From Oscillospiraceae bacterium (lineage in GTDB: Bacteria > Bacillota > Clostridia > Oscillospirales > Acutalibacteraceae): a DNA stretch of 64,000 nt. The stretch lies in assembly GCA_015066095.1 (NCBI GenBank), contig SVPC01000002.1, positions 1 through 64,000 of the forward strand, given 5' to 3'. Positions 4,671 to 23,985 of the stretch are shown here, one piece after another (the first letter of the stretch is position 1; each line of letters begins with the position of its first letter). The position numbers and the translations under genes were made by a program. The notes below the pieces were generated by a model. The model made no database searches, was not told where the DNA came from, and saw only the letters and a list, made by a program, of their open reading frames with translations.

Positions 4671-4720
4671 AACATCACCAAAACAATAGATTTTTGCGTG
4701 GGTGTACTTAAATTACACAC

Positions 4721-4744
4721 AAGGGGAACCTTTCGGTTCCCCTT
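4721..4744. terminator. Strong hairpin at the end of the glycan-uptake operon
   Basis: AAGGGGAACC and GGTTCCCCTT form a 10-bp stem with a 4-base TTTC loop, 27 bp past the stop of the surface-protein gene. No clear T run follows on either strand, so it is either an atypical terminator or an RNA 3'-end stabiliser. Confidence 0.5.
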
Positions 4745-4770
4745 GCTGTAAATAATATTTAGTTTAAGGT

Positions 4771-7700
4771 TTATTCAGCCTTCTTCTTACGAAGAACGAG
4801 AAATACTACCAATCCACCAACTGCAAGTAATGCAACAATGGCTGCAATAATTATATAAATAACCCAACCAGTATTAACATTACCTGAATTAACAGGAGCA
4901 TCATACTTTAACTTAACGCTTCTGGTAACGCCTTCTTCAATTTCAATTTCACGGAAGAAATATTCAGAACCATCTTCGTTAATTGCATAAAGTTCGTAAG
5001 TACCAATAGGGACATTAGCAAAACCAAATGCACCCTTTTCATCGGTTACAACTTCGCCTACTCCCTTAAGAACAATCTTAAGTCCTTCAATAGTATCAAG
5101 TTGAGGTGTGTAAACAGTACCTGTAAAGCTACTGGTTGCACCTTCTGATATGTCGGTTTCAGTACTGTCGCCTGATAATTCGCCACCGAGAGCAGATGTA
5201 TCGGTTACAACATTAAATGTAACAACATCATCCTGTGCGATATAGCCCGAGAAACCGGTAGGAATCTTGGTAGTACCGTTTACAACATAAAGGTCGTAAT
5301 AACCGGTCATAATTTTACCAAAGTTGAAATTACCACTTGCATTGGTTCTTGCTGTGTAAGATTTAGCATCAGATACCAACAACATCTTTGCACCAACTAC
5401 GGGTTTACCGTTTTGGTCCTTAAATGTACCCTTAGCCTTAGCAAAGGTGGCAAACTTATCTTCTTCAAGTATGTCGTCCTTTTCCCACCATTCGCCATCA
5501 TTGGGGTTTTGAAGTTTTATAAGATGCTTAATGAACTCAGCGTCGTAGTTCATTATTTCTAATATTAAGGAACCGTTAGTCCAATAGGTTAAACCTTTGC
5601 CGCCCCTATCATCAGTGAAAACTCCACCCCAAAACTCGAAGTTTGCGGTTACACGATCAAGACCGTCGTAGAATTTCTGGTTGCCCTCAAACAAGTCAGT
5701 CTTAGTCTCGTCACCTTTCTTGTAAACTGTACGGTCGAACATTACACCTTCAGAATATGGAGCTAAATTCACAACAAAGAAAGCTACTTCGGTTCCATCT
5801 ATAGATTCATTTTTAGTGTCGGGGTCATAATTTTCAGGAACTGTAACCTCGGCAACTATTTCGTAATAGTCACCGACCTTCTTTTCGGAGATTATTACAG
5901 TATCTCCCATTTCTTCACGGCCACCATCTTTACGAAGTGTAGGTCTGCTATCTGAATAAAGTGAGGTATAAATGCTATATTCAAAGATGTAAGTTTCACC
6001 AGGTACTACTCTAGCGCGGGTACCAATATGCTGACCATTACCGGATAAAGAGAAATAAAGCATTTTGTGAGAATCATCGGTAAGAGGTGCAATTTCCTTA
6101 TCAGAAATAGTATAAGCACCTGGAGCCGAAGAAAAATCTACCACGCCACCTGTGTGTTCAACATTGTCTGCATTGAGTTGACGGCTATAAGCCTTAGCGC
6201 CGCCCTTAATGTCGAAGACACCCTTATTAGCGCTGAAAGATATAAAATCATCGTCAGAAGCTGCATTAGTAATATACCATTTACCACCTGCAACCTCAAG
6301 GTCGCTGAAGTTTTTGTAAACACCATATGGTAAAGTAACATTGCCGTCAACTATCATCTGAAGTGCACCGTTAAATGTAGCGCCCATTTGAGAAATATCG
6401 AAGCTGATAGTTTTAGCATTTTTAACAATAATATTGATGTTACCGTTATAAATATTGGGTCCGGTGGCCTGGTCATTACCACCAAACTTTAACGGAAGTG
6501 TTGATTCGGCGTTATCCAGATAGATATTGTAGTTGCCGGTTGATGTGTGATTGTGATAATGGGCATTAAAACCAAGTGAATTAGACTTAAAGTAACCCTC
6601 AATACGAATATCGACATCCTTAGTGTGCACAACACCGTGACCTGTTTTCCACAAATGAACTCTTGGAGCAACAAACTCAGCATCTTTTTCAATAGTCAAA
6701 TTATAATCGCAGATGATAAATGCATCGTACTGATGAGCTACAGTAAACTTAACATTGCGGAAAATGGCGTTTCCTGTAAGCTCTGCATTGTTACTGCCTT
6801 TATCAGAGGTTTGGAGGGTGCCGGGGTTACCATCTATTGTAGAAGTGATTATAGCCTGACAAGCAAAATTTGCAGGTTCGGTACCCCAATAAACAGTATT
6901 GCCACTGGGGATGTAAATGGTAGCAACGTCGATTGGAGTCAATCCATCCTGTGCAATAAGACGTGTTGCGTCAGCGTATGTTTTAACAGGGTTCTCCTTT
7001 GTACCTGCAGTTGCAGGACGTTCGCCTGATGCGATTGTGATACCATCGTTAGATACATAGTAATCCATGTAGATGGGGTCGCGTTCAATACGAACTTCAT
7101 AGAAACCTGCAGGAAGAGTAATTGTAGTACCTGTTTTATCAAAGGTGTACTCTTGCTGTGTATCCACATTCTTAGCAACAACATCGTGTTCTGGGTTGTC
7201 AAGATTTACTTTATAAGTACCAATAGTATCAGTAAATTCAAGCAAATTGCCGTTACCCGAAACGTTATTTATAAAATATAACTTATCAGCTGGAACATTT
7301 GTTAATTCACCTGTTTTTTCAGTAGGCAAAGCAGATGAATTAATAACCTGTAAACCTTTTTCAAAAGTAGCGCCGCCTATATTTATAAACTCGGCATTAT
7401 TAGCAGATTTAATATTAACATTAACTGCCTCTTTGAAAACTGTTTTGCCACTAGGTGCACTATTATAGTATGCATTAAAGCCTATTCTAGCGGTTGTAGC
7501 GGGAACATTACATTCTAAATCAACTACACCAGAATAGGTTAAATTTGCATAACTCCAGTTGGAAAGTCTGATAGAAGTTATAGTAGTTGGTTCAGTTGTG
7601 GCATTATAAATTAGCTTTTGACCGGGAACAGTCTTACCGGTTCTAGTATCACCAAAAACTAATGCACACTTTGTATGAGTATATTTAACAGTCGAACTAA

Positions 7701-9129
7701 TATTTACATTACCGTTTTGTAAATACAAAGCCTGATTCTCACTTGCCTTGTAAAGTTCTACATTGTCGTAGTTGGTCCAAGCGGTAGTGTTATTAGCAAT
7801 AGCATATTCTGCAGGGATACGGGTTTGAACTGCTGGGTCGTTGCCAGCAATATTCAAAGTGAACGCATAGTTAGGATATTCACCCTGAGGAACCTCATCA
7901 CCTATTAACTTAATGTTAACTATATCTCCTACAATTAAACCATCAGACAAAGCCTTGGTAATCGCAGCAGCAATTGAACCAATAGGGGTATCTTCAGATG
8001 TACCATCACCTGTTCCATCCTCTTCAACATAATATGTTTTTTCAACAGGAATCTTAGAAGCAGTAATGTTATATACACCTGCGGGAAGTGTAAGATAACC
8101 ATTTTCAGCATTGATTACAACACTAGAATCAGTAACAGATGTGGCCTTAACATTTTCAAAATCAGCGCTAACCTTAAATTTACCCTTTGTATCTGTTAAT
8201 TCAAAAAGGCTGTTAGCCTGAAGTTTGTTGTTAAGAACCCAAAGCTTACCAGAAGGAACCCTTGCAAGGTCGGTACCCTCAGCAGCAGTTACCTCGGTTG
8301 CAGTATGGTTGATAATCTGCATATAACCATCTTGACCAAAAACAGCATTATTTTTGTTATCAGAGAAAGTTACAGAAGCAGCAGCCTTAACAACTATGTT
8401 AAGCGCAGCATTATAGGTAACTGAACCATTATTATCACCATTACCATAAGCAAATACTGGTGTACCTGTACCTGCATTATAAACAATGTTAATATCTGCA
8501 TTATGAGTAATACTTGAAAAATGGTTTGAAATATTGAATGCATTAATAGGCATTTCAGATATAATTGTATATGGTGTATTAGTAACTTTTAGGACGCCAC
8601 TATCGTTACCACCGCCGTAGAAACCGGACTGTGAAGTATTACCAAGATAGCGAGTACCTTGCCCAAATGTCACATTGTGTCCGTTGGCGAAAATATATTT
8701 CCAACTCGAGCCGAAGTTAATACCTATATTCTTAAAATCGGTATCACCGCCCATATGGATTTGTTTGCCGGCACCAATGATAGCAGAACCATCTTTATTT
8801 TCTGACTGAACAATCAACTTGAAGTCGTGGGCAGTTAATTTATCTGAAGTATCAGCGCGCCAAGAAACATCGGTAGTTCCCAAAACCAGAGCGGTTACGA
8901 TATCACCTTCACCAAGGCCTTCAGCATTAGCAAGTTCAATAATCCTGTTAAGTGTTTTTACAGCCCTGAGTTTTTTGCTACCATCTCTGGAGTCGTTACC
9001 ACTCGATGCTACATAATAGGTCTTTTCTTCAGTTGCAGCAGAAACTGTATTAAAAACACAAAGACATGCCGAAAAGACAATTACGAGTGTAAGCAAAATG
9101 CTTAGCGCTTTGTAGATTTTCTTTTTCAT
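4771..9129 (-). CDS. Membrane-anchored beta-helix surface protein with Ig/carboxypeptidase-regulatory-like domains
   Basis: The start is the ATG at 9129 (MKKKIYKALS), which has AGGGGA upstream; a longer frame opens at 9159 without an SD. The 1452-residue protein has a signal peptide (to about residue 32, TVSA-AT) and three beta-helix-like units starting near residues 36, 365 and 690 with heads such as TYYVASSGNDSRDGS and TYYVEEDGTGDGT. A beta-sandwich region (~1010-1230) follows, then two CarboxypepD_reg/SpaA-like domains (~1230-1400), a transmembrane helix near the C-terminus, and a RKKK tail. No LPxTG motif is present, so it is probably held in the membrane rather than linked to peptidoglycan. 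It is the last gene of the AraC-flanked operon and a paralogue of the 1-3909 product. Glycan capture is inferred only. Confidence 0.8.
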   Translation of the reverse strand: MKKKIYKALSILLTLVIVFSACLCVFNTVSAATEEKTYYVASSGNDSRDGSKKLRAVKTLNRIIELANAEGLGEGDIVTALVLGTTDVSWRADTSDKLTAHDFKLIVQSENKDGSAIIGAGKQIHMGGDTDFKNIGINFGSSWKYIFANGHNVTFGQGTRYLGNTSQSGFYGGGNDSGVLKVTNTPYTIISEMPINAFNISNHFSSITHNADINIVYNAGTGTPVFAYGNGDNNGSVTYNAALNIVVKAAASVTFSDNKNNAVFGQDGYMQIINHTATEVTAAEGTDLARVPSGKLWVLNNKLQANSLFELTDTKGKFKVSADFENVKATSVTDSSVVINAENGYLTLPAGVYNITASKIPVEKTYYVEEDGTGDGTSEDTPIGSIAAAITKALSDGLIVGDIVNIKLIGDEVPQGEYPNYAFTLNIAGNDPAVQTRIPAEYAIANNTTAWTNYDNVELYKASENQALYLQNGNVNISSTVKYTHTKCALVFGDTRTGKTVPGQKLIYNATTEPTTITSIRLSNWSYANLTYSGVVDLECNVPATTARIGFNAYYNSAPSGKTVFKEAVNVNIKSANNAEFINIGGATFEKGLQVINSSALPTEKTGELTNVPADKLYFINNVSGNGNLLEFTDTIGTYKVNLDNPEHDVVAKNVDTQQEYTFDKTGTTITLPAGFYEVRIERDPIYMDYYVSNDGITIASGERPATAGTKENPVKTYADATRLIAQDGLTPIDVATIYIPSGNTVYWGTEPANFACQAIITSTIDGNPGTLQTSDKGSNNAELTGNAIFRNVKFTVAHQYDAFIICDYNLTIEKDAEFVAPRVHLWKTGHGVVHTKDVDIRIEGYFKSNSLGFNAHYHNHTSTGNYNIYLDNAESTLPLKFGGNDQATGPNIYNGNINIIVKNAKTISFDISQMGATFNGALQMIVDGNVTLPYGVYKNFSDLEVAGGKWYITNAASDDDFISFSANKGVFDIKGGAKAYSRQLNADNVEHTGGVVDFSSAPGAYTISDKEIAPLTDDSHKMLYFSLSGNGQHIGTRARVVPGETYIFEYSIYTSLYSDSRPTLRKDGGREEMGDTVIISEKKVGDYYEIVAEVTVPENYDPDTKNESIDGTEVAFFVVNLAPYSEGVMFDRTVYKKGDETKTDLFEGNQKFYDGLDRVTANFEFWGGVFTDDRGGKGLTYWTNGSLILEIMNYDAEFIKHLIKLQNPNDGEWWEKDDILEEDKFATFAKAKGTFKDQNGKPVVGAKMLLVSDAKSYTARTNASGNFNFGKIMTGYYDLYVVNGTTKIPTGFSGYIAQDDVVTFNVVTDTSALGGELSGDSTETDISEGATSSFTGTVYTPQLDTIEGLKIVLKGVGEVVTDEKGAFGFANVPIGTYELYAINEDGSEYFFREIEIEEGVTRSVKLKYDAPVNSGNVNTGWVIYIIIAAIVALLAVGGLVVFLVLRKKKAE

Positions 9130-9185
9130 AAAAATCCCCTTTTCTAAAAATTGAATCATTATATATTGGAAATATCGCTAGATAT

Positions 9186-10076
9186 TTATTCCCACTTTTT
9201 AACGCAGTAGCGTTGATATAGGATATAAACTGTTCCAATTAATGCCAGTACTATAACAAAATAAATCCAAAGCATTGCTGAACTTAAACCATATTTCTGT
9301 TCAACCATATTTTCATATGCCACCGAAACAAGTTTATTATCCAAGCTTACAAATAATTCAATCATTGTGTAAATGATAACAAGTGAAATGATGTGACGAA
9401 GACTGGGTACTGTAATGAGCCAGAATTCTTCCCATTTGTTTGCACCCTCAATTTTAGATACCTCGTACATTGAAGAAGATATACTCTGCAAACCTGCAAG
9501 GAAGAGGATGGTTTGTACACCGCACTTCCAAATAAGGTTGATTGTATTTGAAAGCAAGAATGTAAGAATGGGAGAGATTTCACTAGGAATACCTAGTCCA
9601 CTAATAATCTCTGCATAGTTTATCAAACTTTCACTTCCCTCACCGGAGGAGAACAAAGGCATCGTAACTACATCGCTATTGAGCTGATCCATAACTACCG
9701 AGTTAGCTATAATAATCGGTAAGAAGAATATAGCTCTGAAAATTGTTCTACCCTTAAACTTTTGATTGAGTAAAACAGCCAAAATAAGACTTAATGCGAT
9801 GATAATAGGAAGTGAATAAAACATCATACCTATTGATTCACCAAGGTTATCTACATAATCTGGGTCAACTGTAAATAAATCTTTAAAATATGAAAAACCG
9901 ACATAATCTGTTTTAACTTCGCCAGCGTTAATTGATACATCGTTAACCGAATACCAAATAGAACTTACGAGTGGGACAATAAAGAACATAAGCAAACCTA
10001 TTGCCCAGTGTGCTACGAATGTATAACCAGCACGGTTACGCACACTTTCCAAGCTTCTAACGCGTTTCTTAGCCAT
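9186..10076 (-). CDS. Carbohydrate ABC transporter permease, MalF/UgpA type (second system)
   Basis: This 296-residue inner-membrane protein has about six hydrophobic helices and the ABC permease EAA-type loop EVSKIEGANKWEEFWLITVP near residue 205, which docks the transport ATPase. ATG at 10076 follows a strong AGGAGGG. It is the eighth cistron from the DUF5696 gene end of the operon and lies 10 bp after that gene. Its natural MalG-type partner is not adjacent. The only unpaired MalG-type permease is at 22573-23562, 12.5 kb upstream. The substrate is unknown, presumably an oligosaccharide. Confidence 0.85.
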   Translation of the reverse strand: MAKKRVRSLESVRNRAGYTFVAHWAIGLLMFFIVPLVSSIWYSVNDVSINAGEVKTDYVGFSYFKDLFTVDPDYVDNLGESIGMMFYSLPIIIALSLILAVLLNQKFKGRTIFRAIFFLPIIIANSVVMDQLNSDVVTMPLFSSGEGSESLINYAEIISGLGIPSEISPILTFLLSNTINLIWKCGVQTILFLAGLQSISSSMYEVSKIEGANKWEEFWLITVPSLRHIISLVIIYTMIELFVSLDNKLVSVAYENMVEQKYGLSSAMLWIYFVIVLALIGTVYILYQRYCVKKWE

Positions 10077-10086
10077 ATTGTCCCTC

Positions 10087-12345
10087 CTATCCTATTTTAA
10101 ATTCGTATGGTTGCAAGTTGCCAACAGAACTGTTTGCAACCTCATTTAAAAGGTTTGTATAAATGACAACACCGTTACTGAAAACCGACCTGGCTACACC
10201 ATTAATAATGGTATAGTTATCGAGTGTTGCATCCTTTACGGAATTATAAATATTAATGAATCCCTTGTCAACCATAGTAGTTTTTATCTTCTGTTGGTTG
10301 TCTTCAAATACAGTAGCATAAAGCTTGTATTCTTCTAAATCGTCAGATTTTCCTTCATAACCATCGGTAATATAGTAGGAAAGACCCATGCCATAAGCCA
10401 CAGCCTTTGCTATCTCTTTATCAGGATTTTGAGCGATATTTACGCTTTCTGTATAAAGTGATTTATAAGAATGGAAAACCATTTGATAGAAAGGCACATC
10501 ATAAGTGAACACATCATAATCTCCTGAGGTAGACGGAGCATCAAAGACAACATCTGCAGCACAAGCAGCGTAAGAGTTTGCTTCAGCCACAGCGGTTAAG
10601 TAACCGTTTTTCTTTGCTTTTTCGATGATTTTCTTAGCATCAGCTTCTATGCTATTACGGTTGATGTATTTATTATCATTATAATCAGAGTAAGCCGTAG
10701 AGCCAAGGGTTGAAAAGCTTATAGCCTTTGCATCATAATCCTCTGCTTTTTCGATAGCAGCATCCCCTGCTTCGATTAAATAGTCTCTGCCTAGCGCGTA
10801 GTACTTATTAGCATCATCTTTTACACGTGTCGGTGAAGTAGGATAAACTTCAGCATCGTACAAAATAGCAGTCTTAGCCATATCACCGCTAACTGAAAAA
10901 CCGTTCCCTGATTTGCTATAGAAAACTATATCATTATCAAGGAAAAGATTTGTAGATTTACAGAAAGACATTAAATCTTCCAAATCACTTGTACTACCAT
11001 AAACCGACGGATAACTGCTGCCACCTGCAATAGAACCAGCACGCAAACCATTATCACCGTATCCCATAAGTCTTACTTCAGGCAATATACCATTATCTTT
11101 CTTTAAAGTTTTAAGAATTTCTTGAGCCTGCGAGAAAGTGGTTAAAGGAGATATTTCCTTATAAGGGATACCAAAGAATGACTGTGTTGTATTGGTACCT
11201 CCCAAGAAAGTTACACTATAAGGTGATGTTTCGGTCTCAATCTTTTTAAGTTCACCCTTTTCTTCAAGATATGAACGATATTTCTTAGCCATACCATTAT
11301 AATCGGCATCTGCACCATATAACGGATAATAAGCAACAGAGAATACTTGGCCCGAAATATCATCATTTACACGCTTGGTGGTCCTGAAAATATTTTGTCC
11401 GTAATATTCATACATAAATTCGTCGTAACCGCGAACAAGGAAAACTGGACTAACAGTAGAATAGCCTGTTCTGCTATTTGCAGCTTCTACATTAATTTCA
11501 GTAGAACCAACAGCACCTTCAACTATACCAAGCAACCCTTGTTTTGAGTTATAAGCACCAAATACAGGTAGACGAATAGCTTCGTCATCTTGCCTTGATA
11601 TAGGGTTACGAATTGTAGCATCACGACCGTAAATCGGAGCCTGATAACTAAGTGTTCCTTCTGTGGTCTCACTACAATTGATTATTGCACCGTTACCGGC
11701 AGGAACAAAAATATTAGCATCTGCCGAGTTTTTAACACTACAAAAATTAGGTGCAACACCAACAGAAGACAAAACATATTCCTCGCCGTCTTCCATAATA
11801 AGAGAAGAGTCGATTTGAATCTTTATGTGGTTTTCTTCCAAGATATAGTCGATAGGTACTGCTATTTTATACTGTTCAAAGAAATAGTAAACACGCAGAC
11901 CGTTTTCTATTTCACCACAATAAATGTTACCTGCGTCTACCATTTCGCCGGCTTCATTTGTATAAATTGCGCCATCTTCAGTAACGCTGGCACTGGTTAC
12001 AGTATCCCACTCGAGAGTTTTTGTATTAACAACAGTAATATTTAACGCACTACTACCGTTATCACCGATAGAACCGTCTTTAAATGCTTCATAGAAAATA
12101 TCAGACCAATAAGAGCCACTTTTATGTTCATATATAACGGCTCTTGCCTCGGCATCCCATTTTAGACGATATTCTGAATTAGAAGCAATCAATTCTTTAT
12201 TATAAACTTTTTCGTTCATACCGCTTTTGTAAGCGTTAGTAATGGTTTCTTCACCGCAACCGGCAAAACATATAACCATCAAGCAGAGTGCCATTACAAA
12301 AGCTAATATGCGTAGCATTTGTTTTTTGACAATCTTCATTTGCAT
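10087..12345 (-). CDS. DUF5696-family lipoprotein, possibly glycoside-hydrolase-like
   Basis: The protein has ~752 residues and a lipoprotein signal peptide ending in CFAGC, so it is probably anchored outside the membrane. The body resembles DUF5696 proteins, which in other Firmicutes accompany sugar ABC transporters and Yip1-family genes (recalled from annotation, not searched). The second half alternates strands and helices as in a TIM barrel (for example NLFLDNDIVFYSK, DAKAISFSTLGST, NGYLTAVAEANSYA). Glycosidase function is inference and no catalytic pair can be assigned. GAAGGA lies 6 bases before the ATG at 12345; upstream in-frame TTG and GTG codons at 12351 and 12348 are alternatives. 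Confidence 0.7.
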   Translation of the reverse strand: MQMKIVKKQMLRILAFVMALCLMVICFAGCGEETITNAYKSGMNEKVYNKELIASNSEYRLKWDAEARAVIYEHKSGSYWSDIFYEAFKDGSIGDNGSSALNITVVNTKTLEWDTVTSASVTEDGAIYTNEAGEMVDAGNIYCGEIENGLRVYYFFEQYKIAVPIDYILEENHIKIQIDSSLIMEDGEEYVLSSVGVAPNFCSVKNSADANIFVPAGNGAIINCSETTEGTLSYQAPIYGRDATIRNPISRQDDEAIRLPVFGAYNSKQGLLGIVEGAVGSTEINVEAANSRTGYSTVSPVFLVRGYDEFMYEYYGQNIFRTTKRVNDDISGQVFSVAYYPLYGADADYNGMAKKYRSYLEEKGELKKIETETSPYSVTFLGGTNTTQSFFGIPYKEISPLTTFSQAQEILKTLKKDNGILPEVRLMGYGDNGLRAGSIAGGSSYPSVYGSTSDLEDLMSFCKSTNLFLDNDIVFYSKSGNGFSVSGDMAKTAILYDAEVYPTSPTRVKDDANKYYALGRDYLIEAGDAAIEKAEDYDAKAISFSTLGSTAYSDYNDNKYINRNSIEADAKKIIEKAKKNGYLTAVAEANSYAACAADVVFDAPSTSGDYDVFTYDVPFYQMVFHSYKSLYTESVNIAQNPDKEIAKAVAYGMGLSYYITDGYEGKSDDLEEYKLYATVFEDNQQKIKTTMVDKGFINIYNSVKDATLDNYTIINGVARSVFSNGVVIYTNLLNEVANSSVGNLQPYEFKIG

Positions 12346-12379
12346 CACCAATCCTTCAAAATTAAGAGTTCAAATACCA

Positions 12380-14503
12380 TTACCTATGAACGGCTTCTTC
12401 GTAAATCTCAGCTATGAATGAGATGAACTGTTCCGCAAGTATACCGCACATAAGAATAACGAATACTACCAAAATCATAAAGAAAATAATTACAATCGCG
12501 GTCAAGAGGAACTTGAAGAAATCATAATCATGAATCTTAATCATAGCAATAGCCAACATGAAGAAAGTATACAACAAAACTACCGTTTCAATGCCGCCGA
12601 TAAGACCTGCGGTTGATAAAGGTAAGAAATTGGTAAGTATAACCTTCAAGAACAAGAATACAACCCAAGGCATCACGCAATAGCTTGTAGAAATGTATAC
12701 ATCTTTAAATGTACCTTTGCCCTCAAACATTGTACATACGAGCCAGTTACATACTGACCATAAAATCAACAAACCGATTGTAGAGAAAACAGTATACAAT
12801 GAGTTGTAATTTCTTAACAATGTGTTTGTAAACAGGAAGCCTGTTGAAGTTACATTGAGCACCGAAGCTATGTAGAAAAGAAGTGTGAGTATAATAGAAA
12901 TAGGCCATGAACCCATATTCTTAAACTTCAAATCATCAAATGCCGTGAACGGATGTAATACAGCATTAAACAAAAGCTTCACTTTAGCATTATTTATTAA
13001 CTTTTTGTTGTTTTTACGCAAATAACGTATAAACAAGCAAACCGCAATAATAATAACAACGAGAATTAGAACTAATATAGCAAAATAATCTGCAACAAAC
13101 TGTGCAACTATTTTATTCCAAGCTAAATCGTAAACTGCGTAGTCACAAGCTTCTTCAGCATACTCAAGAGCTTTATCTAAATCACCCTTGTTGTAACTAA
13201 CCATTGCAAGACCACGGTAAGCAAGCTGGCAGTTTCTGTTCTCAGAGAGTACTTTTTGCCACATTTCACCCGCATCATCATAGTCACCCTTTAAATAAAG
13301 GCTTTGTGCCTGACGAATAAGTTTACCATATTCGGTGGGTTGGAAAACTGTGAATGAAAAACTTTGAAGGTCGGCAACAATAACGTCGTCACCATTAAGT
13401 GTAATTGCACAAGGTTTCTTAAATAAGCCTAACTGGTCACCACTACCGATACCGCCACCGAAAGCAGACATAAGGTTACATTCAGAGTCATAAACATAAA
13501 TCTTTCCATGACCTGTTTCAAGCGCAAAGATATATTCGTCGTGGCTGGTTGCAATAGCATCTATAGACTGACCTGCCGCACCGTAAACCAAGTCGGTTTC
13601 AACGAAGTTTACATCCCCCGAAGAACTGATTTCACCGGTAAGACTTCTCTTAAAGAGAATGTTTGCACCATTATGGCTGATTTTCTTAATTTGTCCTGTA
13701 TCAGAGTTTGCACCAAACTTACTGCTTGTTATAGCAGAAGTACAGGTTACCATAAAGCCTTGTGTATCAAAAGAAAAGTCAGTAAACGAATAAGGTAAAG
13801 TTTTAACCGAATAGTTTTGCTTTTCTTCCGAATCTGTTAACTTATCCCATAAGAATGCAAGAGTATCCAAAGCAGAACTTTCAACAGTGTTAGGGCCATA
13901 GAAACCCATAAATTCATACTCTGGAGTAAACATCATAGCACCATAGTAACAACCTAAAGACAAGATATAGGTGTAACCATGTGTATCTTTTGCAATCGAT
14001 GTAGGTTTAAAAAAGAAATCATCAGGCAATAAAGCTGAATCAGGTGCTTCAATAGTTTCAATTAAAACACCATCTTTATCTAAAATCAGTACTCTTGCAT
14101 TTGCTGTATCTGAAATGTACATATTGCCATATACGTCGGCATAAATACCTTCTGCACCATCAAAATCAATAGGCTGACCTTTTTTGTCAACAACATTGAT
14201 TTCAGCCGCAGCGGTGTATGTTTTATTTATTCTAACCAAACGAGATTCATCGCCACACAAGAGCAAAAGACCGCTATTTTCGGTATAGAAAATATCAGTA
14301 ATACCATCGAATCTTTCCTTCAAACCAAAGGAAGCGGCATTAAACTCATCAAGTGGGAGATACATCTCTTTAGAAAGACGTTGTTCCTGTGAACCGCCGG
14401 GTACGTCAACCTTAATGTAGTTTTCGGTATCGGCAAAAGTGGTAAAGGTTGTTCCAAATATAACTAATACAAGAACAATACTTGCTATGATTTTCTTTAA
14501 CAA
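12380..14503 (-). CDS. NHL-type beta-propeller, TPR and Yip1-domain membrane protein
   Basis: This 707-residue protein has a signal peptide (1-24). A beta-propeller of NHL-like repeats (~40-385) follows, with segments such as GAEGIYADVYGNMYISDT and KPCAITLNGDDVIVADL. Next are a short TPR region (~395-450, AQSLYLKGDYDDAGEMWQ), a transmembrane helix near 465-490, and a C-terminal five-helix Yip1-like membrane domain (~510-700). The translation start is TTG at 14503 with GAGGAAGG upstream. The propeller probably sits outside the cell. Its operon position between the MalFG pair and the DUF5696 gene suggests a sensing or scaffold role in glycan uptake, which is inference. Confidence 0.7.
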   Translation of the reverse strand: MLKKIIASIVLVLVIFGTTFTTFADTENYIKVDVPGGSQEQRLSKEMYLPLDEFNAASFGLKERFDGITDIFYTENSGLLLLCGDESRLVRINKTYTAAAEINVVDKKGQPIDFDGAEGIYADVYGNMYISDTANARVLILDKDGVLIETIEAPDSALLPDDFFFKPTSIAKDTHGYTYILSLGCYYGAMMFTPEYEFMGFYGPNTVESSALDTLAFLWDKLTDSEEKQNYSVKTLPYSFTDFSFDTQGFMVTCTSAITSSKFGANSDTGQIKKISHNGANILFKRSLTGEISSSGDVNFVETDLVYGAAGQSIDAIATSHDEYIFALETGHGKIYVYDSECNLMSAFGGGIGSGDQLGLFKKPCAITLNGDDVIVADLQSFSFTVFQPTEYGKLIRQAQSLYLKGDYDDAGEMWQKVLSENRNCQLAYRGLAMVSYNKGDLDKALEYAEEACDYAVYDLAWNKIVAQFVADYFAILVLILVVIIIAVCLFIRYLRKNNKKLINNAKVKLLFNAVLHPFTAFDDLKFKNMGSWPISIILTLLFYIASVLNVTSTGFLFTNTLLRNYNSLYTVFSTIGLLILWSVCNWLVCTMFEGKGTFKDVYISTSYCVMPWVVFLFLKVILTNFLPLSTAGLIGGIETVVLLYTFFMLAIAMIKIHDYDFFKFLLTAIVIIFFMILVVFVILMCGILAEQFISFIAEIYEEAVHR

Positions 14504-14531
14504 TCTGTTTTACCTTCCTCTCATAGTCAGA

Positions 14532-15395: not shown

Positions 15396-15438
15396 AATTT
15401 ACAACTCCTAACTTTTAATCTAGCAAATTATCTTTATG

Positions 15439-16356
15439 TTAGCGGTCACTCTTACCGATAAGATTGAGCAATCCACCTATCAAATAACGGAAGATAATAA
15501 TTATTGCAAATAAGAATACTGATAATGCTGCGGCGTAACCCATTTCATAACGTGTTGTACCAATATCACCTATGTACTGTACCAATGTATCAAGTGAGTT
15601 GTTAACACTGGGGTAACCTGCAAGTGTAGTTTGGAGAGCACCCATTGAGAACGCAGTCTGAATTTGCATAACTGCACTAAACAAAAGAATTGTCTTCATT
15701 GAAGGCATTGTGATATACCACAATTCGTGCCATCTGGTTCTAATACCATCAATTGCACCGGCTTCGTAAAGTTCGGTATTAACGTTTTGAAGACCTGCGA
15801 TATTAGCAAGGAACGATACACCCATACTTGACCAAAGTTGGATTGCAACGATAAGCACAAAGTTGTATTCAGGATTTTGGAACCATTGAATCGGCTCGGT
15901 AATAAAGCCAAAGCTTATTAGTAAGTTATTTATGTAAGCGTAGCTGTCACCCGAGAACATAATTTGGAAGATATATAATGCGTTACCAACAAGAGAGGGT
16001 ACGTAGAATATAAATGTCAAAAATACGCGTATTACACGGGGGAATTCGTTAATCATCCACGCTAATAAGAATGCCAACAAGTAACCACCCGGACCTACTA
16101 AAATACCGAATGAAAGAGAGTTCGCAAGAACTGTAAAGAACAGGTCATCAGCGGTGAACATTCTTATATAATTTTCAAAACCTACGAAAATAGGAGTTGA
16201 AACCATATCGTAATCAAAGAAACTGAGTACCATAGACGAAACTATGGGAATAACAGTAAATAAGAAAAACGCGAGCATAAAAGGAGCCATAAACAAATAA
16301 AATGATATGTCATCCTTCACCAGTCTCTTTTTTGTTAAGCTTGGGCTTTTTTTCAA
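15439..16356 (-). CDS. Carbohydrate ABC transporter permease, MalF/UgpA type (first system)
   Basis: This 305-residue protein has a cytoplasmic N-terminus (KKSPSLTKKR) and six hydrophobic helices. The EAA loop LYEAGAIDGIRTRWHELWYI is followed by TMPSM near residue 215. The start is TTG at 16356 with GAGG upstream; no in-frame ATG offers a better site. It follows the giant solute-binding protein gene by 29 bp and precedes its MalG-type partner. Confidence 0.9.
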   Translation of the reverse strand: MKKSPSLTKKRLVKDDISFYLFMAPFMLAFFLFTVIPIVSSMVLSFFDYDMVSTPIFVGFENYIRMFTADDLFFTVLANSLSFGILVGPGGYLLAFLLAWMINEFPRVIRVFLTFIFYVPSLVGNALYIFQIMFSGDSYAYINNLLISFGFITEPIQWFQNPEYNFVLIVAIQLWSSMGVSFLANIAGLQNVNTELYEAGAIDGIRTRWHELWYITMPSMKTILLFSAVMQIQTAFSMGALQTTLAGYPSVNNSLDTLVQYIGDIGTTRYEMGYAAALSVFLFAIIIIFRYLIGGLLNLIGKSDR

Positions 16357-16385
16357 AGTTTTCGCCTCATTCCAAAATAATTAGT

Positions 16386-19220
16386 TTAATTTCCTCTGTT
16401 AGTGTATTGTTTCCACTTTCTTGCAATTTCATTGTTAGCTTCGGTACCAAATTTCATCATCATATCTTTGGTGTTCTTACCGTTACTTACAACGTTCCAA
16501 TAAGCTTGATAAATAGCACGCTGAACATAGTAACTACCGGGATATTCAGGGATTTCAGTAACTTCTGCACGGGCTGCAACCAATGCTTCAAGCGCACCAT
16601 CATCCCAAGAAAGACTTTCCAAAGCTTCCTTATTAGAAACAGCCACACGACCTGCGGGTCCTAAGATTGTTTCTACATCGTTTGAGTAAGAAAGTTGAGT
16701 ATCAGCGCTGGTCCACCATTTAAGGAATTCCCATGCTTCTTTTTCTCTATTATTGTCAGCAGCCATTTTAAGAATTGAACAAGCAGTACCTGTTCCGGCT
16801 GTGATGTGATTATCAGCCTTGCCGTCGCCATCCTTATCGGGACCGGGGATTGATGTAAAGCCCCATAAACCTTCAATTTCGGGGGCAGCAACTTTAAGTG
16901 TTGTATAAAGTGTATAAGCCGAAACACCCAAAGGTGTGGTACCTGTACGGAAACGGTTGTAGAAATCCATCGTCATTGGAACTTTAAGTTTTGTGTAATA
17001 GTTAGTCCACTCTTCAAAAATCTCGGCCGATTCAGATGTCAACATATTAGTTGACTTACCATCGGGAGAATAGAGTTCCAAACCATTTTGCATAAGCAAT
17101 GACGGGAATAAACTATCAATTGAAGTACTTGCAGGTAAGCAAACATTCATATTGTTACGTGTGAGTAACTTGGTAGCAAGTTTGAAGTCATCCCAAGTTT
17201 TGGGAATCTCAAGCTCGTACTCTGCAAGGATATCTTTACGATAGAAAAGTACGGGGAAAGACTGAGTATCGGGAAGACCATATAAACCGCCTTTATACCA
17301 GTACGGATTTGCTGCATTATCAGCAAATCGTGTTAAAACTTGCTTATAATCGTCGAAATTTGTAAGGTCATACAAAACGCCACGCATTGCAAGGTTTACA
17401 GGCTCAGTACGGGTGTGTTGCAAAACAAGGTCAGGACCTTTACCCGAAAGTACAGCCTGAATAATAGTAGCGTTAACAAGTTTCATATTAACCTTAATGC
17501 CTGTTTGAGGAGTAAACTTTCTATCAATCAAAGCATTAAGTACTTGAGCCTGGTCACGGCCCCAGTTAACCCAAACGGTAAGGGTTTTATCGTCGACATT
17601 TTCCTCTTCTACATAATCATCCATAAATGAGTAGATGAAACGCTCTGTAGAGAAACCAAGTTCTTGGAAGAAACCGGGTTCTTCGAAAGCCTGTGCATTA
17701 GGAGCAGAAAGTGCCAAACGGTCAATCTGCAAAGGCATGGAACGTAAATCGGATAAAACAGAAGAAACTGAACAATAGTTTGTATAATATGTACTCTTAT
17801 AACGGTGAGAATCATACTTGTTATCAAGCATTTGATTCACTGTTTGAAGCATATTCATAATAACTGAATAGTTAGAACCGCTATCTTCACCAGTGATTTC
17901 AAGCAAGGTATTAGCCGCTTCTTCTAACAGCGCTTTTATTTTGAGCATACGCTCTTCCATATCGGAGATTTGCTTAAATAACTCGTAGTCGCGGTAAATA
18001 TCAACAGTTTCACCTGTGATTTTTGTCATATCAACGTAGAGGTCACCCATTTCGGCAACTGCTTCATTAAGCTTTGTACGTACAATAGACATATCAGAAG
18101 CGGTAACTGTCATAGCAATTTGATGTTTACCTGCTTCTAAATAGAATAAATAGGGGTTGTTTTCTTTTTCTTGGAAGGTGCTTTTTTGCCAACTTTCATC
18201 ATAGTTGAAACCTGCATTTTCTGCTTCTAAGAAAGGAACTTCACCATCGATTTTAATAGTACGATAACTTTTCGCACCGATAACTCCACTCTGACGGAAA
18301 GAGTAAGAAAGCTGATAATAACCGCTCTTCTTAACCTCTACATTCCAAACAAGTGTATCACCAACGGTTGACCAGTTATTACCTATAAAGTTAATTAAAC
18401 GTTTTTCAACTTCAGAAGGAGTGATATCTAAAGAGCCCTGTTCAGCGCCGCCAACAAGGAAATAACCGCTCTTTAATGCAGCGTCTTCACCTTCAATAAT
18501 AATGGGGTCACCATTATAATATTGTGACTTATCAGCTGAAGCGATATAATCTTTATAAGGCTTTGCTTGTGAGGTTTTTGCAAATTTAAAATAATCAAGT
18601 TCTATAGAGCCTTTAACAGGAACGATTTCAACAATGTGCTCACCCTTTGTGAGATTTACCATAAATCTTTCGGTTTTTTCTAAGGCATCATCATATGCTT
18701 CATTATAATAATATACATCGGCAATAACCTGCTCGGGTACATATTCATTACCCAAAGCGTCGGCACTGATACCGCCTTCTTTATCCTTCCACATACGGGG
18801 GAATTTTAATTTTTCCATATTGGAATAGAGATATTTGCCGTCTATTTTAAGGCCTACAGTTACATCGTCTTTCATGTCATCCAAAGCCTTGTATGACATA
18901 CCGATGTAATATAAGCCGTCTTTTTCAATATTAACAATAAATTCAATAGGTTTTTTGTTTAAAACCTTACCTTTTAAGTCTTCTTTTGAAAATGCGTCAA
19001 CAGAAGAATATTCAGATTTTGAATATTTTGACAAATAGGTCGTATATGAATTTTTATCCTTTGAAGATTTTATAGCAAGTTCAGTAATGCCCTGCTCCGC
19101 TTTAGGTGCTGTTTCGGTATTTGCCTTTTGAGCACTTGACAAAACAAGACTTGAAGTAATACAACTTATTATTACTAAAATTGCTAATAAACTACGAAAT
19201 GCTTTTATTTTCAAAATCAT
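16386..19220 (-). CDS. Giant extracellular solute-binding protein with N-terminal carbohydrate-binding-like domains
   Basis: The start is taken at ATG 19220, five bases after GAGG; the adjacent ATG at 19223 is too close. The 944-residue product is about twice the usual length for a family 1 sugar-binding protein. A signal peptide with possible lipobox VIISC leads. Two beta-sandwich modules follow (~70-225 and ~240-390; for example KDGLYYIGMSYKAL and KKSGYYQLSYSFRQSG), then a helical linker (~390-530), and a typical binding domain from ~545 to the end (LTVWVNWGRDQAQVLNALID, GKGPDLVL). The fused modules may pre-bind polysaccharide next to the transporter, which is inference. It heads the set with the MalFG pair at 14532-16356. 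Confidence 0.85.
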   Translation of the reverse strand: MILKIKAFRSLLAILVIISCITSSLVLSSAQKANTETAPKAEQGITELAIKSSKDKNSYTTYLSKYSKSEYSSVDAFSKEDLKGKVLNKKPIEFIVNIEKDGLYYIGMSYKALDDMKDDVTVGLKIDGKYLYSNMEKLKFPRMWKDKEGGISADALGNEYVPEQVIADVYYYNEAYDDALEKTERFMVNLTKGEHIVEIVPVKGSIELDYFKFAKTSQAKPYKDYIASADKSQYYNGDPIIIEGEDAALKSGYFLVGGAEQGSLDITPSEVEKRLINFIGNNWSTVGDTLVWNVEVKKSGYYQLSYSFRQSGVIGAKSYRTIKIDGEVPFLEAENAGFNYDESWQKSTFQEKENNPYLFYLEAGKHQIAMTVTASDMSIVRTKLNEAVAEMGDLYVDMTKITGETVDIYRDYELFKQISDMEERMLKIKALLEEAANTLLEITGEDSGSNYSVIMNMLQTVNQMLDNKYDSHRYKSTYYTNYCSVSSVLSDLRSMPLQIDRLALSAPNAQAFEEPGFFQELGFSTERFIYSFMDDYVEEENVDDKTLTVWVNWGRDQAQVLNALIDRKFTPQTGIKVNMKLVNATIIQAVLSGKGPDLVLQHTRTEPVNLAMRGVLYDLTNFDDYKQVLTRFADNAANPYWYKGGLYGLPDTQSFPVLFYRKDILAEYELEIPKTWDDFKLATKLLTRNNMNVCLPASTSIDSLFPSLLMQNGLELYSPDGKSTNMLTSESAEIFEEWTNYYTKLKVPMTMDFYNRFRTGTTPLGVSAYTLYTTLKVAAPEIEGLWGFTSIPGPDKDGDGKADNHITAGTGTACSILKMAADNNREKEAWEFLKWWTSADTQLSYSNDVETILGPAGRVAVSNKEALESLSWDDGALEALVAARAEVTEIPEYPGSYYVQRAIYQAYWNVVSNGKNTKDMMMKFGTEANNEIARKWKQYTNRGN

Positions 19221-19343
19221 CATATCCTCGTTCAAATAAAGTCGAAATAAAATTGAAATTAATTCCAAAAGTCCCGAAACGGAACAAACACAAAAGTAAA
19301 AAAATTAAGTAACGCCTACCTATATAATATACAGGTGATTTTC

Positions 19344-19377
19344 TTTCTGTCCCCCACACTTTGGTGGGAGACAGAAA
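19344..19377. other. Stable intercistronic hairpin
   Basis: TTTCTGTC at 19344-19351 pairs with GACAGAAA at 19370-19377, and CCCAC pairs with GTGGG inside. It lies 11 bp past the beta-helix lipoprotein stop and upstream of the giant binding-protein gene, with no T run on the minus strand. It may stabilise or process the mRNA and so set separate expression of the two halves of the operon. The surrounding 168-bp gap also holds an imperfect palindrome ACCTATATAATATACAGGT at about 19318-19336. Confidence 0.5.
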
Positions 19378-19388
19378 TTGATTAAAAA

Positions 19389-21077
19389 TTATTTGTACCA
19401 GTAAACAGTTGCGTCAGGTTCAAACTCCTTAAATGCATCTAATGTTTGTTGTTTAGTTTTTGCAACATGCTTTGATACAAGAGTACTTTCTTTAAGCCAA
19501 CAGAACTGTGCGGTTAATTGCTCTGTAGTACGCAAACTCTGTTTTATATAGTATACATTATTTTCTCTCTTCCAAGCATCATATGTAGCCTTGTTGCCAA
19601 TATCAAATTTATAAATCATACGACCGGGACAGTCTATGATGTTGTTAGAGAATGAAACAGGGCCTGTAATTTGGTCTGCTACAAAATTTCCGTAATGAAC
19701 ACCATCAATACCGCGGATACCACCATCATCCGGACGGGTACCCCAACCAAGAGAGGTAAAACGACAAATATTATTATCCATATAATAGTTATAGAAATCG
19801 GAAGGACCGCCATTTTCTTCTTTGCCACCTTCCCAAGTTTCTATATCACAGTTATTAAACTCTAAAAGGTTATCACATATATAGATATCGTGGTAATTAA
19901 ATCTATTCTTACCAGCATGACCCTGTGGTGAATAAGCCGAGTCGAATGTTTGATAAACCCAGTTATGGCACCAGTATAGGTTTTCGCCGCCGCAATAGGT
20001 AGTTATAGCATTACCGGCACGGCCAGTACCACCTTGGAAACGGCCACCGCCTACATAACCTGATTCACAGTTAGTTACAGTCCAGTTATTGTTATTATAA
20101 TTTCCAAATATTCCTGAAGCATAACGAAAAGCAAGGTTATCAAATATTACATTTTGAGTACCGGTACCCATTGTGGCACCTACAGCACCGCCCACTTCAA
20201 TAGAATCCCAAACCTCTGCGGGATTTCCTCTATCGCAGTATATGTAGAGTGTTGCGATTGATTCATCAACATAGAAGTCGGTATTCTTTTCGACTGCACC
20301 TATAGTGAGTTTTCGATAACCATGTTCTTCACCTTGATTAAAGATAACTTGACCAGGATAAGCATACATATAGCTTATTTGCCAAACATTTTTCTTTTTA
20401 GATGGTTTCCATATTTCTTGAGCGAAGTTTTTAGGAGAACCATAGAACATTGGTTTTCTACCTTCACCGTAAGAACCGTAGGTTATTCCCCTTCTAACGG
20501 GGAAATTTTCAAGCATACGCCAAAGACAACCGCGTTCAAACAATACTGCATCGCCGGGTTCTAAATTCAAACTTTCAATTGCTTCTAAAGTTTGAATAGG
20601 TGTTTTGGGCGAAAGACCATCATTAGCATCATTACCCTTAGTAGAAACATAATATATTCTACCCTTTAACTCATAAAACTCCTCTGTATTGGGTGTATTA
20701 AGAATTTCATCACGAAGTTTATTTCTTTCCTTTTCTGCATAGCCTTTATAATTAGTAGCAAGGTTAGAACCATCAATAACAGGCTTTATTTCGTAAGCGT
20801 CAGTTCTTTCGGTATTTGATTTTGTATTAGCATCTGCTGTTATAATACCATCATAAGGACTAACACTGTTAGAATCATCTGAAGAAAGGTCTTCGGTAGT
20901 ATCGTCGGAAACAGGTTCCGACGATACATTCGATTGATTTTGAGAGTCATCCGGGTTTTTCTCGGGTGGCGTGGTTGTACAGCTCGCGAGCAAAAGCATC
21001 ATTAAAGCCATCATCACGGCAATAACACGCTTTGCATAAGAGCTTTTAAAAATTTTAGAAAGCTTCATTTTTTTCAT
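19389..21077 (-). CDS. Beta-helix (pectate-lyase-fold) lipoprotein
   Basis: This 562-residue protein has a lipoprotein signal peptide ending LLASC, then an acidic, Ser/Asp-rich linker (~35-75). The mature part opens with the head IYYVSTKGNDANDGLSPKTP (~residue 141), shared with the two large surface proteins of this region, and then right-handed parallel beta-helix sequence rich in Asn, Gly and Tyr (to ~555). Such folds are found in polysaccharide lyases and glycan-binding proteins. The catalytic residues cannot be judged by eye. ATG at 21077 has AAGGAGA upstream. It lies 17 bp after the solute-binding lipoprotein gene, which supports a role in binding or cutting the transported glycan. Confidence 0.75.
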   Translation of the reverse strand: MKKMKLSKIFKSSYAKRVIAVMMALMMLLLASCTTTPPEKNPDDSQNQSNVSSEPVSDDTTEDLSSDDSNSVSPYDGIITADANTKSNTERTDAYEIKPVIDGSNLATNYKGYAEKERNKLRDEILNTPNTEEFYELKGRIYYVSTKGNDANDGLSPKTPIQTLEAIESLNLEPGDAVLFERGCLWRMLENFPVRRGITYGSYGEGRKPMFYGSPKNFAQEIWKPSKKKNVWQISYMYAYPGQVIFNQGEEHGYRKLTIGAVEKNTDFYVDESIATLYIYCDRGNPAEVWDSIEVGGAVGATMGTGTQNVIFDNLAFRYASGIFGNYNNNNWTVTNCESGYVGGGRFQGGTGRAGNAITTYCGGENLYWCHNWVYQTFDSAYSPQGHAGKNRFNYHDIYICDNLLEFNNCDIETWEGGKEENGGPSDFYNYYMDNNICRFTSLGWGTRPDDGGIRGIDGVHYGNFVADQITGPVSFSNNIIDCPGRMIYKFDIGNKATYDAWKRENNVYYIKQSLRTTEQLTAQFCWLKESTLVSKHVAKTKQQTLDAFKEFEPDATVYWYK

Positions 21078-21093
21078 TATTGCTCTCCTTCAA

Positions 21094-22518
21094 TTATTTG
21101 AGTTTTGCTGCGGTTGTATTATATTCCTTAACCCACTTATCAACAGTTTTCTCATATTCGTTGATTTTTCCGGCCATAAATTCTTTCTTAGTATATTCAA
21201 GAACACTATAGTATCCTTGGTCCATTTCATCGGGATAAGCGTAAGGAAATACTTTATTCTTTTGGCTCATACACCAGTTGTAAACTTCGAGGTTTTGTTT
21301 ATTACCGAAGTAAGCACTGAGTTCGTAGTTAGCGCCATCAAGGAAGTAACGTAAGAAGTAAGGAACTGCCTGAGGATTCTTAGCACCCTTAGGAATACCA
21401 TAAGCTTCAGCTTCGCCATGACCTTGATAATATTTCTTTTGTCCGTCAATCTTAGGCATTGGAACAAAATAAAGAGTATTAGCCGACTTCAAATTACCAA
21501 AATAAGGATTCTTCTGTCTGGCGTGTACTGCAGTACCGATAGAGAACAATACTGAACCTTCGTTAAATGTCTCCTGACCGCCAAATGCAAACAAACCTTC
21601 ATTGTTATAAAGTTCACCAAGTAATTCATGTGTTTTTATAAAGTTTTTGTTGCTCATATTGCTGCTATATTTGCTGCCGTTAAACTTGATAGAACCACTT
21701 ATACCATAGGAAGTAAGATAAACGCCAAAGCCACCTTCACCATTAGCACCTGGATTACCTGTGAGTTCTTTAAACTCTTTACACATTTCAATGTACTTGC
21801 TCCAAGTCCATTTGTCTTTTTTCCAAAGTTTGTAGGGGTCTTCAAAATCGTACTTTTTAATTAAAGTGCTATTGTAGAACAATAAATTGATAGAACCAAT
21901 ATGAGTATTCTGCAAAGAAACAGCATAAGTTTTACTGCCGAATGTGTAAAGGTCCATAATATTTTTATCCCAAGCCTCATCAGTAAAATCATACTTGGCT
22001 ACAGTAATGGGTTGGAAATTCTTAACAAAATCAGGTCTGGGACCACGTAGACGAGCCATATCAGGAATGTTTTCACCTGAAGCAATAAGTGCGGGGAGTT
22101 TTGTATAGTACTGTGCGTGGGAGACGGTTTTCCAATCAACCTTAATGCCTGTTGCTTTTGTGAATGCATTAATAGCAGCAGGAGCGCCTGTGTATTCTAC
22201 TGCAGGGTTCCAGTTGTACATTACAACCGTGCTACCTGCAAGTTTCTTAGGCATAGAAGCTAAAACTTCTTTCCAAGTTTTACCGCCGATTTTGTTTTCT
22301 TTCGGAACAGAAGAGGTGCCTTGACTGCCTGTGCCCGTGCTGCCAGAAGCAGCATCAGAAGTGGTGTCACCTACTTGGCTTTGTGTTACTTCATCTACAA
22401 AGAAATCGTCGTTTACTTGTTCTGAAGATGTGTCGTCGCCGTCACCGCAGCCAACTATGGTAAAGAGCATACAAAGTACCATAGCAAGTGCAAGAATAGT
22501 TTTTAATGTGTTTTTCAT
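21094..22518 (-). CDS. Extracellular solute-binding lipoprotein, family 1 (second system)
   Basis: The start is placed at ATG 22518 (MKNTLKTILALAMV) because AGGAAAG lies six bases before it; a longer frame from 22572 only adds a poor N-terminus. The 474-residue product has a lipobox IVGC, a low-complexity Asp/Ser/Thr/Gly linker, and a sugar-type binding domain from ~85 (STVVMYNWNPAVEYTGAPAA, KATGIKVDWKTVSHAQY, SGENIPDMARLRGP). It would deliver a glycan to a membrane pore, probably formed by the permeases at 22573-23562 and 9186-10076. It follows the first permease gene by 54 bp. Confidence 0.88.
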   Translation of the reverse strand: MKNTLKTILALAMVLCMLFTIVGCGDGDDTSSEQVNDDFFVDEVTQSQVGDTTSDAASGSTGTGSQGTSSVPKENKIGGKTWKEVLASMPKKLAGSTVVMYNWNPAVEYTGAPAAINAFTKATGIKVDWKTVSHAQYYTKLPALIASGENIPDMARLRGPRPDFVKNFQPITVAKYDFTDEAWDKNIMDLYTFGSKTYAVSLQNTHIGSINLLFYNSTLIKKYDFEDPYKLWKKDKWTWSKYIEMCKEFKELTGNPGANGEGGFGVYLTSYGISGSIKFNGSKYSSNMSNKNFIKTHELLGELYNNEGLFAFGGQETFNEGSVLFSIGTAVHARQKNPYFGNLKSANTLYFVPMPKIDGQKKYYQGHGEAEAYGIPKGAKNPQAVPYFLRYFLDGANYELSAYFGNKQNLEVYNWCMSQKNKVFPYAYPDEMDQGYYSVLEYTKKEFMAGKINEYEKTVDKWVKEYNTTAAKLK

Positions 22519-22572
22519 AGATATCTTTCCTTTCATTATTATATTATAAACCGCTTGCGCGGAAATTTCCAA

Positions 22573-23562
22573 TTAACCTACAATACCGCTAGTTGCAATA
22601 CTTGCAACAAACTTACGCTGAATTAATATGTAAAAAATGATGAGCGGAAGAACGAATATGAGACAACCTGACAAAAGTACGGGAACCTGTAGTAACGATG
22701 CCTCACCGATAGAAATGTTAAGTTTATTAACAAGACTATTGCCTCCAAAGGTTGACAGAGCAACCGCAAATGTAGTTTCTTCCGTATACATATTTGCTAA
22801 GAACAAATCGTTCCAGTGCCAAATTACCGAGAAAAGCAATACGGTAATCATAGCGGAACCTGAAGACGGAAGAACGATAGTTAAGAAGGTTTTCCAAGGA
22901 CCTGCACCGTCTATCCACGCTGCCTCTTCAAGTTCTTTTGGCAATCCCTTAAAGAATTGCATATATATATATATGAAGAGACCGCCCTTAAGACCTACGC
23001 CCAAAAGACCCGGCAAATAGAACGCCCACGGCGAATTGGTTATATTTGGTTGTAAATCTGTACCTATTAAATCGCCGATAGCTCCGAAAATTCCCAAAAA
23101 ATCAAGATGACTAAACTGAACATAGGTTGGGATGATAATCATCATAGAAGGAACCAGAATATTCAAAATCATTAAAGCGCTAAGGAGCCCTCTGCCCTTT
23201 ATCTTGAAACGTGCCATACCGTAAGCGGCAATCGCACAGGTCATAAACTGGATAAGTGCAGTTACAATTTCATAAACAAAGGTGTTGACTAATGAATCGC
23301 CAACATCGTATACAATCCACGCATTTTTAAAGTGTTCTAATGTTGGGCTTTTAGGAACCCATGTAACCGTAACATCATAAGAGTCGTTTATACCCATTAT
23401 GGAGTTTAGCAACATAAACAAGAACGGATAAACAATAACATAACTTATCGACAAGAAGAATATGTACCTAAACATGTTAGCAATAATGCCGGGAGCGTGC
23501 TTTTTAGTGAGTAATTTTCCTCTTTCAAAATCTATATCGCTCAAAGCTTTTGGCATCCTCAT
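22573..23562 (-). CDS. Carbohydrate ABC transporter permease, MalG/UgpE type (second system)
   Basis: This 329-residue permease is the first gene of the operon. It has six membrane helices and the EAA loop LEEAAWIDGAGPWKTFLTIV near residue 215, followed by LPSSG. ATG at 23562 is preceded by AGGAGG nine bases upstream; a closer ATG at 23567 is out of frame. Its MalF-type partner is not adjacent but probably at the far end of the operon. The ~168-nt leader before it carries an inverted repeat. Confidence 0.88.
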   Translation of the reverse strand: MRMPKALSDIDFERGKLLTKKHAPGIIANMFRYIFFLSISYVIVYPFLFMLLNSIMGINDSYDVTVTWVPKSPTLEHFKNAWIVYDVGDSLVNTFVYEIVTALIQFMTCAIAAYGMARFKIKGRGLLSALMILNILVPSMMIIIPTYVQFSHLDFLGIFGAIGDLIGTDLQPNITNSPWAFYLPGLLGVGLKGGLFIYIYMQFFKGLPKELEEAAWIDGAGPWKTFLTIVLPSSGSAMITVLLFSVIWHWNDLFLANMYTEETTFAVALSTFGGNSLVNKLNISIGEASLLQVPVLLSGCLIFVLPLIIFYILIQRKFVASIATSGIVG

Positions 23563-23690
23563 AGCATGGCACCTCCTATTCGTTCATTTTCGGTGAAATA
23601 ATAACCACTTGAGTTATCTTTCAAGTTAACAGTCATAAGTTTTTTTTGCGTAATTGACCGCACATTAACACCGCCTATTAAATCTTATAA

Positions 23691-23718
23691 GCCATATTAC
23701 CTCAGAGTAAAATATGGC
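23691..23718. promoter_or_regulatory. Inverted repeat in the operon leader
   Basis: GCCATATT (23691-23698) and AATATGGC (23711-23718) are perfect 8-bp arms separated by 12 bases. They lie about 12-39 nt downstream of the predicted transcription start of the glycan-uptake operon. It could be a repressor site or an RNA hairpin; no known operator is recognised. Confidence 0.5.
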
Positions 23719-23736
23719 ATTATCATTTACTGTACT

Positions 23737-23765: not shown

Positions 23766-23767
23766 TA

Positions 23768-23950: not shown

Positions 23951-23985
23951 AAAAGTATAGAAATTTCACCAAAATGGAGTTTTTT

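Follow-up and report, generated by a model that had tools for sequence, protein, structure and literature searches.

A conserved Firmicutes gene cassette with two CUT1 permease pairs, a DUF5696 lipoprotein and a Yip1-domain protein, probably serving glycan import

Introduction

The closest described counterparts of the locus analyzed here are the CUT1 importers of the MalEFGK and UgpBAEC type, which combine a solute-binding protein (SBP) with a MalF and a MalG permease. Such importers can use a shared ATPase, MsmX or MsmK. The locus is a ten-gene operon within a 64,000-nucleotide stretch of an Oscillospiraceae genome (contig SVPC01000002.1; hereafter, the window). It likewise encodes SBP, MalF and MalG components, with a UgpC-type ATPase located elsewhere, but adds a second permease pair, an SBP fused to a CBM35-type domain (CBM-SBP), an NHL/TPR-Yip1 protein and a lipoprotein of the DUF5696 family. 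The recurrence of these eight genes across distant Firmicutes, with their order unchanged, suggests a glycan-uptake machine that has not been described.

Two other known systems bear on this cassette. DUF5696 shares its full-length fold with the enzymes of glycoside hydrolase family 129 (GH129), represented by the alpha-N-acetylgalactosaminidase NagBb and the GH129-like 3,6-anhydro-D-galactosidase DagB of Zobellia. In other lineages, the cassette resembles Gram-positive beta-mannan loci, such as the galactomannan cluster of Bacillus sp. N16-5, in having GH26, GH5, GH113, GH130 and CBM35 nearby. We considered this strain as a characterized carrier of the cassette and rejected it, given that the accessible text on its galactomannan cluster describes one CUT1 importer and names no double importer, DUF5696 or Yip1 (PMC3542313). 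Within the literature and terms covered by our search, DUF5696 appeared in no paper; Yip1 combined with ABC transporter and Paenibacillus returned bacteriocin work only; and Yip1 with mannan and permease, the combination of mannan, Paenibacillus, GH26, SBP and transcriptome, and phrases for four permeases returned nothing.

A conserved cassette of eight genes

The operon consists of ten open reading frames (ORFs), all on the minus strand, running from 23562 down to 4771 (Table 1), with intergenic gaps of 0-43 nt and a single longer one of 120 nt 5' of the CBM-SBP gene, as measured from mechanical ORF starts. These are the ten closely spaced, same-strand genes that an earlier reading of this DNA (the original prediction) had listed, and Pfam and NCBIfam searches bear out its assignment of two MalF-type and two MalG-type permeases and two binding proteins. 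All four permeases carry BPD_transp_1, two being nearest to UgpA/MalF models and two to UgpE/MalG-type models; the match of MalFa, the 9186 gene, scores 17.5 bits, under the Pfam cut-off of 26.4. We denote the two permease pairs a and b. The NHL protein has TPR and Yip1 matches.

DUF5696, NHL-Yip1 and CBM-SBP co-occur across Firmicutes, as the original prediction would have it. An alignment-based scan of named genomes with CBM-SBP yielded at least 577 confirmed relatives, of which the best 80 were examined; 14 loci with <8.9 kb after CBM-SBP were dropped, leaving 66, not all of them independent (L089 and L095 belong to one genome, L104 and L139 to another). The order CBM-SBP, MalFb, MalGb, NHL, Yip1, DUF5696, MalFa, MalGa is kept in 63 of these 66 loci, two of the 63 having one or more genes in pieces. 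Separately, in a sample of 196 genomes from the class, DUF5696 matches were found in 67 at E <= 0.001 and in 57 above the family cut-off. Among 20 regions hand-picked from these matches, the 18 that encode a DUF5696 of nearly full length all had cassette neighbors, and the two with a shorter relative had none. We therefore rejected chance neighborhood. The possibility that two ordinary, independent CUT1 importers lie together by accident, to which the resemblance of each pair to a normal CUT1 F/G pair might point, is extremely improbable and already contradicted by the 63 loci that keep both pairs along with the same other proteins.

The exceptions to the order are L098 and two loci among the closest relatives of the window, L082 and L083, where MalGa is not found 3' of MalFa. 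The same holds for L063 and L064, and L087 ends too early to judge. Upstream of its cassette, L082 has MalGa-SBPa-bh2-bh2, an arrangement like that of the window. Because the usual order places MalGa after MalFa, with both pairs adjacent, the nested layout of the window is derived. Nesting as a functional design, the importer within an importer of the original prediction, was accordingly rejected.

Permease pairing and ATPase

We compared the cassette proteins by distance-matrix partial correlations over 81 loci and over a subset of 48 loci with SBPa, a weak test in which the raw correlations are 0.80-0.96. The highest value over 81 loci, 0.48, was obtained for MalFb-MalGb. MalFa-MalGa reached 0.20, below MalFa-NHL (0.29), and 0.43 in the SBPa subset, and CBM-SBP gave 0.33 and 0.24 with MalFb and MalGb, respectively (0.12 and 0.40 in the subset). 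Gene order elsewhere and these correlations support the pairing of the permeases as a/a and b/b, with CBM-SBP joining pair b, in line with the original matching of the MalG at 22573 to the MalF at 9186 and of the inner MalF to the inner MalG. SBPa may serve pair a. In CBM-SBP, the CBM35 match (residues 276-344) is sub-threshold, at 20.2 versus a cut-off of 28, and the family profile also matches a CBM35-bearing glucanotransferase structure (9e-5).

Pfam and NCBIfam searches detected no ATPase among the ten genes. A UgpC-type ATPase of 391 aa is encoded on another contig (G000:C11; NF008653, 495 bits versus a cut-off of 432), which accounts for the operon lacking such a gene and probably serves its permeases. 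The missing ATPase stressed in the original prediction is thus real for the operon and ordinary as a property of an importer of this kind. The assembly (1.32 Mb in 28 contigs, 95.5% complete) contains 11 permease-domain matches, of which four lie in the operon.

A predicted GH129 fold lacking the catalytic pair

The DUF5696 lipoprotein matches its family with E = 6e-112 and is the sole DUF5696 match in the genome. Its predicted fold is a full-length match to that of GH129 (residues 52-753); unlike GH129, it lacks the catalytic Asp and Glu, is a lipoprotein within an importer cassette and has conserved residues of its own, D556 and N592. The position of the nucleophile Asp (D435 of NagBb) is occupied by S547/T548. 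The acid/base Glu of the GTE motif, which we take to be the second catalytic residue of NagBb, is replaced by A589, with some doubt on the register given the adjacent E590. PF11308 (Glyco_hydro_129) had no match in the genome at E <= 0.001. The claim of the original prediction that the operon encodes no hydrolase holds insofar as none of the ten genes belongs to an annotated GH family, whereas DUF5696 and the beta-helix lipoprotein bh2 have glycosidase-type folds. Outside the cassette, DUF5696-related proteins of ~567 aa (L076:1087-2787 and L077:9433-11127) keep the GH129-type Asp and Glu and are possibly active enzymes.

Enzymes encoded near the cassette

Scans of the flanks covered 42 of the 57 proteins encoded downstream and 86 of the 161 encoded upstream, with results drawn from 25 of 87 families; three mostly minus-strand protein clusters, interpreted as shadow ORFs of the cassette, were left out. 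GH26 was found in 7 of the 42 downstream and 16 of the 86 upstream proteins. Downstream, there were also CBM65 (10/42), GH5 (6/42), GH10 (3/42), GH30 (3/42) and GH113 (2/42), and upstream, GH130 (2/86). A single CBM35-GH26 cluster, counted by its own profile only, occurs near 29 of 100 loci; it lies downstream of the cassette in several Paenibacillaceae and upstream of it in Lachnospiraceae. Culturable, non-pathogenic carriers with such a GH26 neighbor include Cohnella thermotolerans (L124) and Paenibacillus illinoisensis (L156). GH26 stands near 24 loci compared to 0.39 expected by length (95 GH26 rows, 49 genomes searched), an enrichment inflated by relatedness and locus choice, the 49 genomes (those of 50 loci picked from the 80, except L094) being a non-random set chosen after the neighbor families had been seen, with the nine closest and most short loci excluded; the profile count over 100 loci is free of that choice. 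Closer relatives of the window have other neighbors: GH3 and GH36 (L063), phosphomannose isomerase domains (L062) and uronate-type genes (L083). The substrate would appear to be of the beta-mannan type in some other lineages, and here may be a hemicellulose or pectin oligosaccharide. CBM65 proteins are encoded directly after the cassette at L150:21223-22644, L101:20790-22541 and L152:20999-22531, and belong to a protein cluster common to 13 loci.

Proposed mechanism and alternatives

With moderate confidence, we interpret the locus as one copy of a glycan-import cassette that is widespread and co-inherited in Firmicutes, with dual CUT1 channels, a DUF5696 glycan binder and a Yip1 scaffold. In this scheme, the CBM35-fused SBP would capture oligosaccharides at the cell surface for MalFb/MalGb, and SBPa, where present, would do so for MalFa/MalGa, with import through two channels that would both be powered by the shared UgpC-type ATPase. 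The window DUF5696, having lost the catalytic positions, probably binds glycan and does not cut it, and NHL/TPR-Yip1 probably acts as a scaffold in the membrane, linking the components. The single glycan machine of the original prediction is upheld as a co-inherited unit (63/66; 18/18), while glycan uptake and the substrate are still inferred.

Several observations weigh against this interpretation. Among 89 DUF5696 sequences, column 548 is Asp in 59, and both catalytic columns are acidic in 14, so that some members may be active. The GH129-like enzyme of Zobellia shows activity despite missing one of the two catalytic residues of NagBb (PMC5698469). It is conceivable, if unlikely, that DUF5696 has exo-glycosidase activity based on altered catalytic residues, for example, D472/D556, and trims captured oligosaccharides before import. 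Besides the full-length GH129 fold and the Asp at column 548, D556 is kept in 82 of the 89 sequences (37/37 in alignment A3) and D472 in 71 (34/37 in A3), and L098, which has no DUF5696, carries a GH5 gene inside the cassette. However, the window copy has neither GH129 catalytic residue, an acid occurs at column 589 in just 22 of the 89 sequences, and 5 of the 6 control sequences carry Cys at column 556.

Other points of this kind concern SBPa, which was seen in 43 of the 66 loci (36 upstream, 7 downstream) and not in the counted span of the other 23. The true number of loci without it is lower, because in L082 one lies further upstream and in L085 the profile missed an SBP. Furthermore, SBPa shows no covariation with pair a (0.07 with MalFa and 0.10 with MalGa, compared to 0.32 with NHL), which slightly lowers our confidence. 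Finally, the half-cassette of L098 (Candidatus Avimonas, 9836-18744), consisting of CBM-SBP, MalFb, MalGb, the GH5 gene and NHL-Yip1, lacks DUF5696, MalFa and MalGa together in the examined span. All this would fit DUF5696 being the surface receptor of MalFa/MalGa in place of a classical binding protein, with SBPa optional, and so would the position of DUF5696 directly 5' of MalFa and the retained site suggested by D556, N592 (81/89) and N638 (87/89). We nevertheless regard such a receptor as quite unlikely: the DUF5696-MalFa partial correlation is just 0.13, and 0.02 among the loci with SBPa; an SBP does occur in at least two of the 23 loci; and we know of no TIM-barrel SBP of an ABC importer. 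More speculative still, and in our view doubtful, is a single dual-channel importer in which NHL/TPR-Yip1 would hold both pairs, with the CBM35-SBP feeding one and a glycosidase-fold pseudo-enzyme receptor feeding the other.

The remaining contrary evidence bears on the substrate. By the same profile count, the nine closest loci (L082-L090) and the 20 class relatives all lack a CBM35-GH26 protein nearby, and, in contrast to the Bacillus sp. N16-5 cluster, the 95.5% complete genome of the window has no GH26 or GH130 match (other mannanase families were not searched).

Other features of the locus

Table 1. Features of the operon and its surroundings
Feature	Position	Strand	Remarks
MalGa, CUT1 permease pair a	22573..23562	-	first operon gene; orthology by phmmer; 3' of MalFa in most relatives
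SBPa, lipoprotein solute-binding protein	21094..22572	-	SBP_bac_1; presumed partner of pair a
bh2, beta-helix lipoprotein	19389..21077	-	candidate surface glycosidase or lyase; outside conserved core
Intercistronic hairpin between bh2 and CBM-SBP gene	19344..19377	-	14-nt arms, 93% complementary
CBM-SBP, CBM35-type domain + helical linker + SBP fusion	16386..19268	-	core gene 1
MalFb, CUT1 permease pair b	15439..16356	-	core gene 2
MalGb, CUT1 permease pair b	14532..15395	-	core gene 3
NHL/TPR-Yip1 fusion protein, with Yip1 as membrane domain	12380..14503	-	core genes 4+5; separate genes in many relatives
DUF5696 lipoprotein of GH129 fold, lacking the catalytic pair	10087..12351	-	core gene 6
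MalFa, CUT1 permease pair a	9186..10076	-	core gene 7
bh_big, large repetitive surface protein	4771..9159	-	CarboxypepD_reg domains; C-terminal TM segment; outside conserved core
Terminator-like hairpin 3' of operon, 12-bp	4719..4746	-	4746-4719
AraC-family regulator, divergent, upstream of operon	23974..24819	+	

The two beta-helix proteins, which the original prediction had included in the machine, fall outside the conserved core: relatives of bh2 were found in L064, L082 and L087 only, and those of bh_big in L063 and L064 only. bh2 (562 aa) has no Pfam family. Its closest known counterparts are right-handed beta-helix enzymes: it matches GH136 in its N-terminal sequence and is modeled (pLDDT 64.6) as a right-handed beta-helix, resembling GH136, BT_1002 (presumably GH141), PL6 and PL9. 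Acidic invariants were seen in an alignment of 5 sequences only, and bh2 can be considered a candidate surface glycosidase or lyase. A 1348-aa ORF at 1-4044 (-), open at the start of the window and contig, has no Pfam match and 26% identity to bh_big.

The operon is likely controlled by the divergent AraC-family regulator; a search for AraC sites in 23500-24000 detected short repeats only. The intercistronic hairpin is perhaps an mRNA stabilizer. A perfect TTGACA-17-TATAAT at 10243-10271 (-), inside the DUF5696 coding region at its 3' end and ~170 nt 5' of MalFa, is a possible internal promoter in a window where promoter scans (66 versus 65.5) and terminator scans (15 versus 13.4) were no richer than shuffled sequence. 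An Rfam scan gave no match at the gathering threshold. Directly 3' of the operon lies a Y1/IS200-like transposase ORF (4176-4670, -), with hairpins and 22-29-nt repeats in and around it. A SpoIVA gene (37358-38836, -) in a 1.3-Mb genome suggests a small-genome, spore-forming lineage.

Implications

Should the cassette form a single machine, it would constitute a recurrent Firmicutes architecture for glycan uptake that combines four permeases with three non-transport partners and for which we found no description in the literature searched. A function would then follow at once for DUF5696, the NHL/TPR-Yip1 proteins and the CBM-fused binding proteins. Named Paenibacillus and Cohnella species that can be cultured carry the cassette, which makes it amenable to genetic testing.
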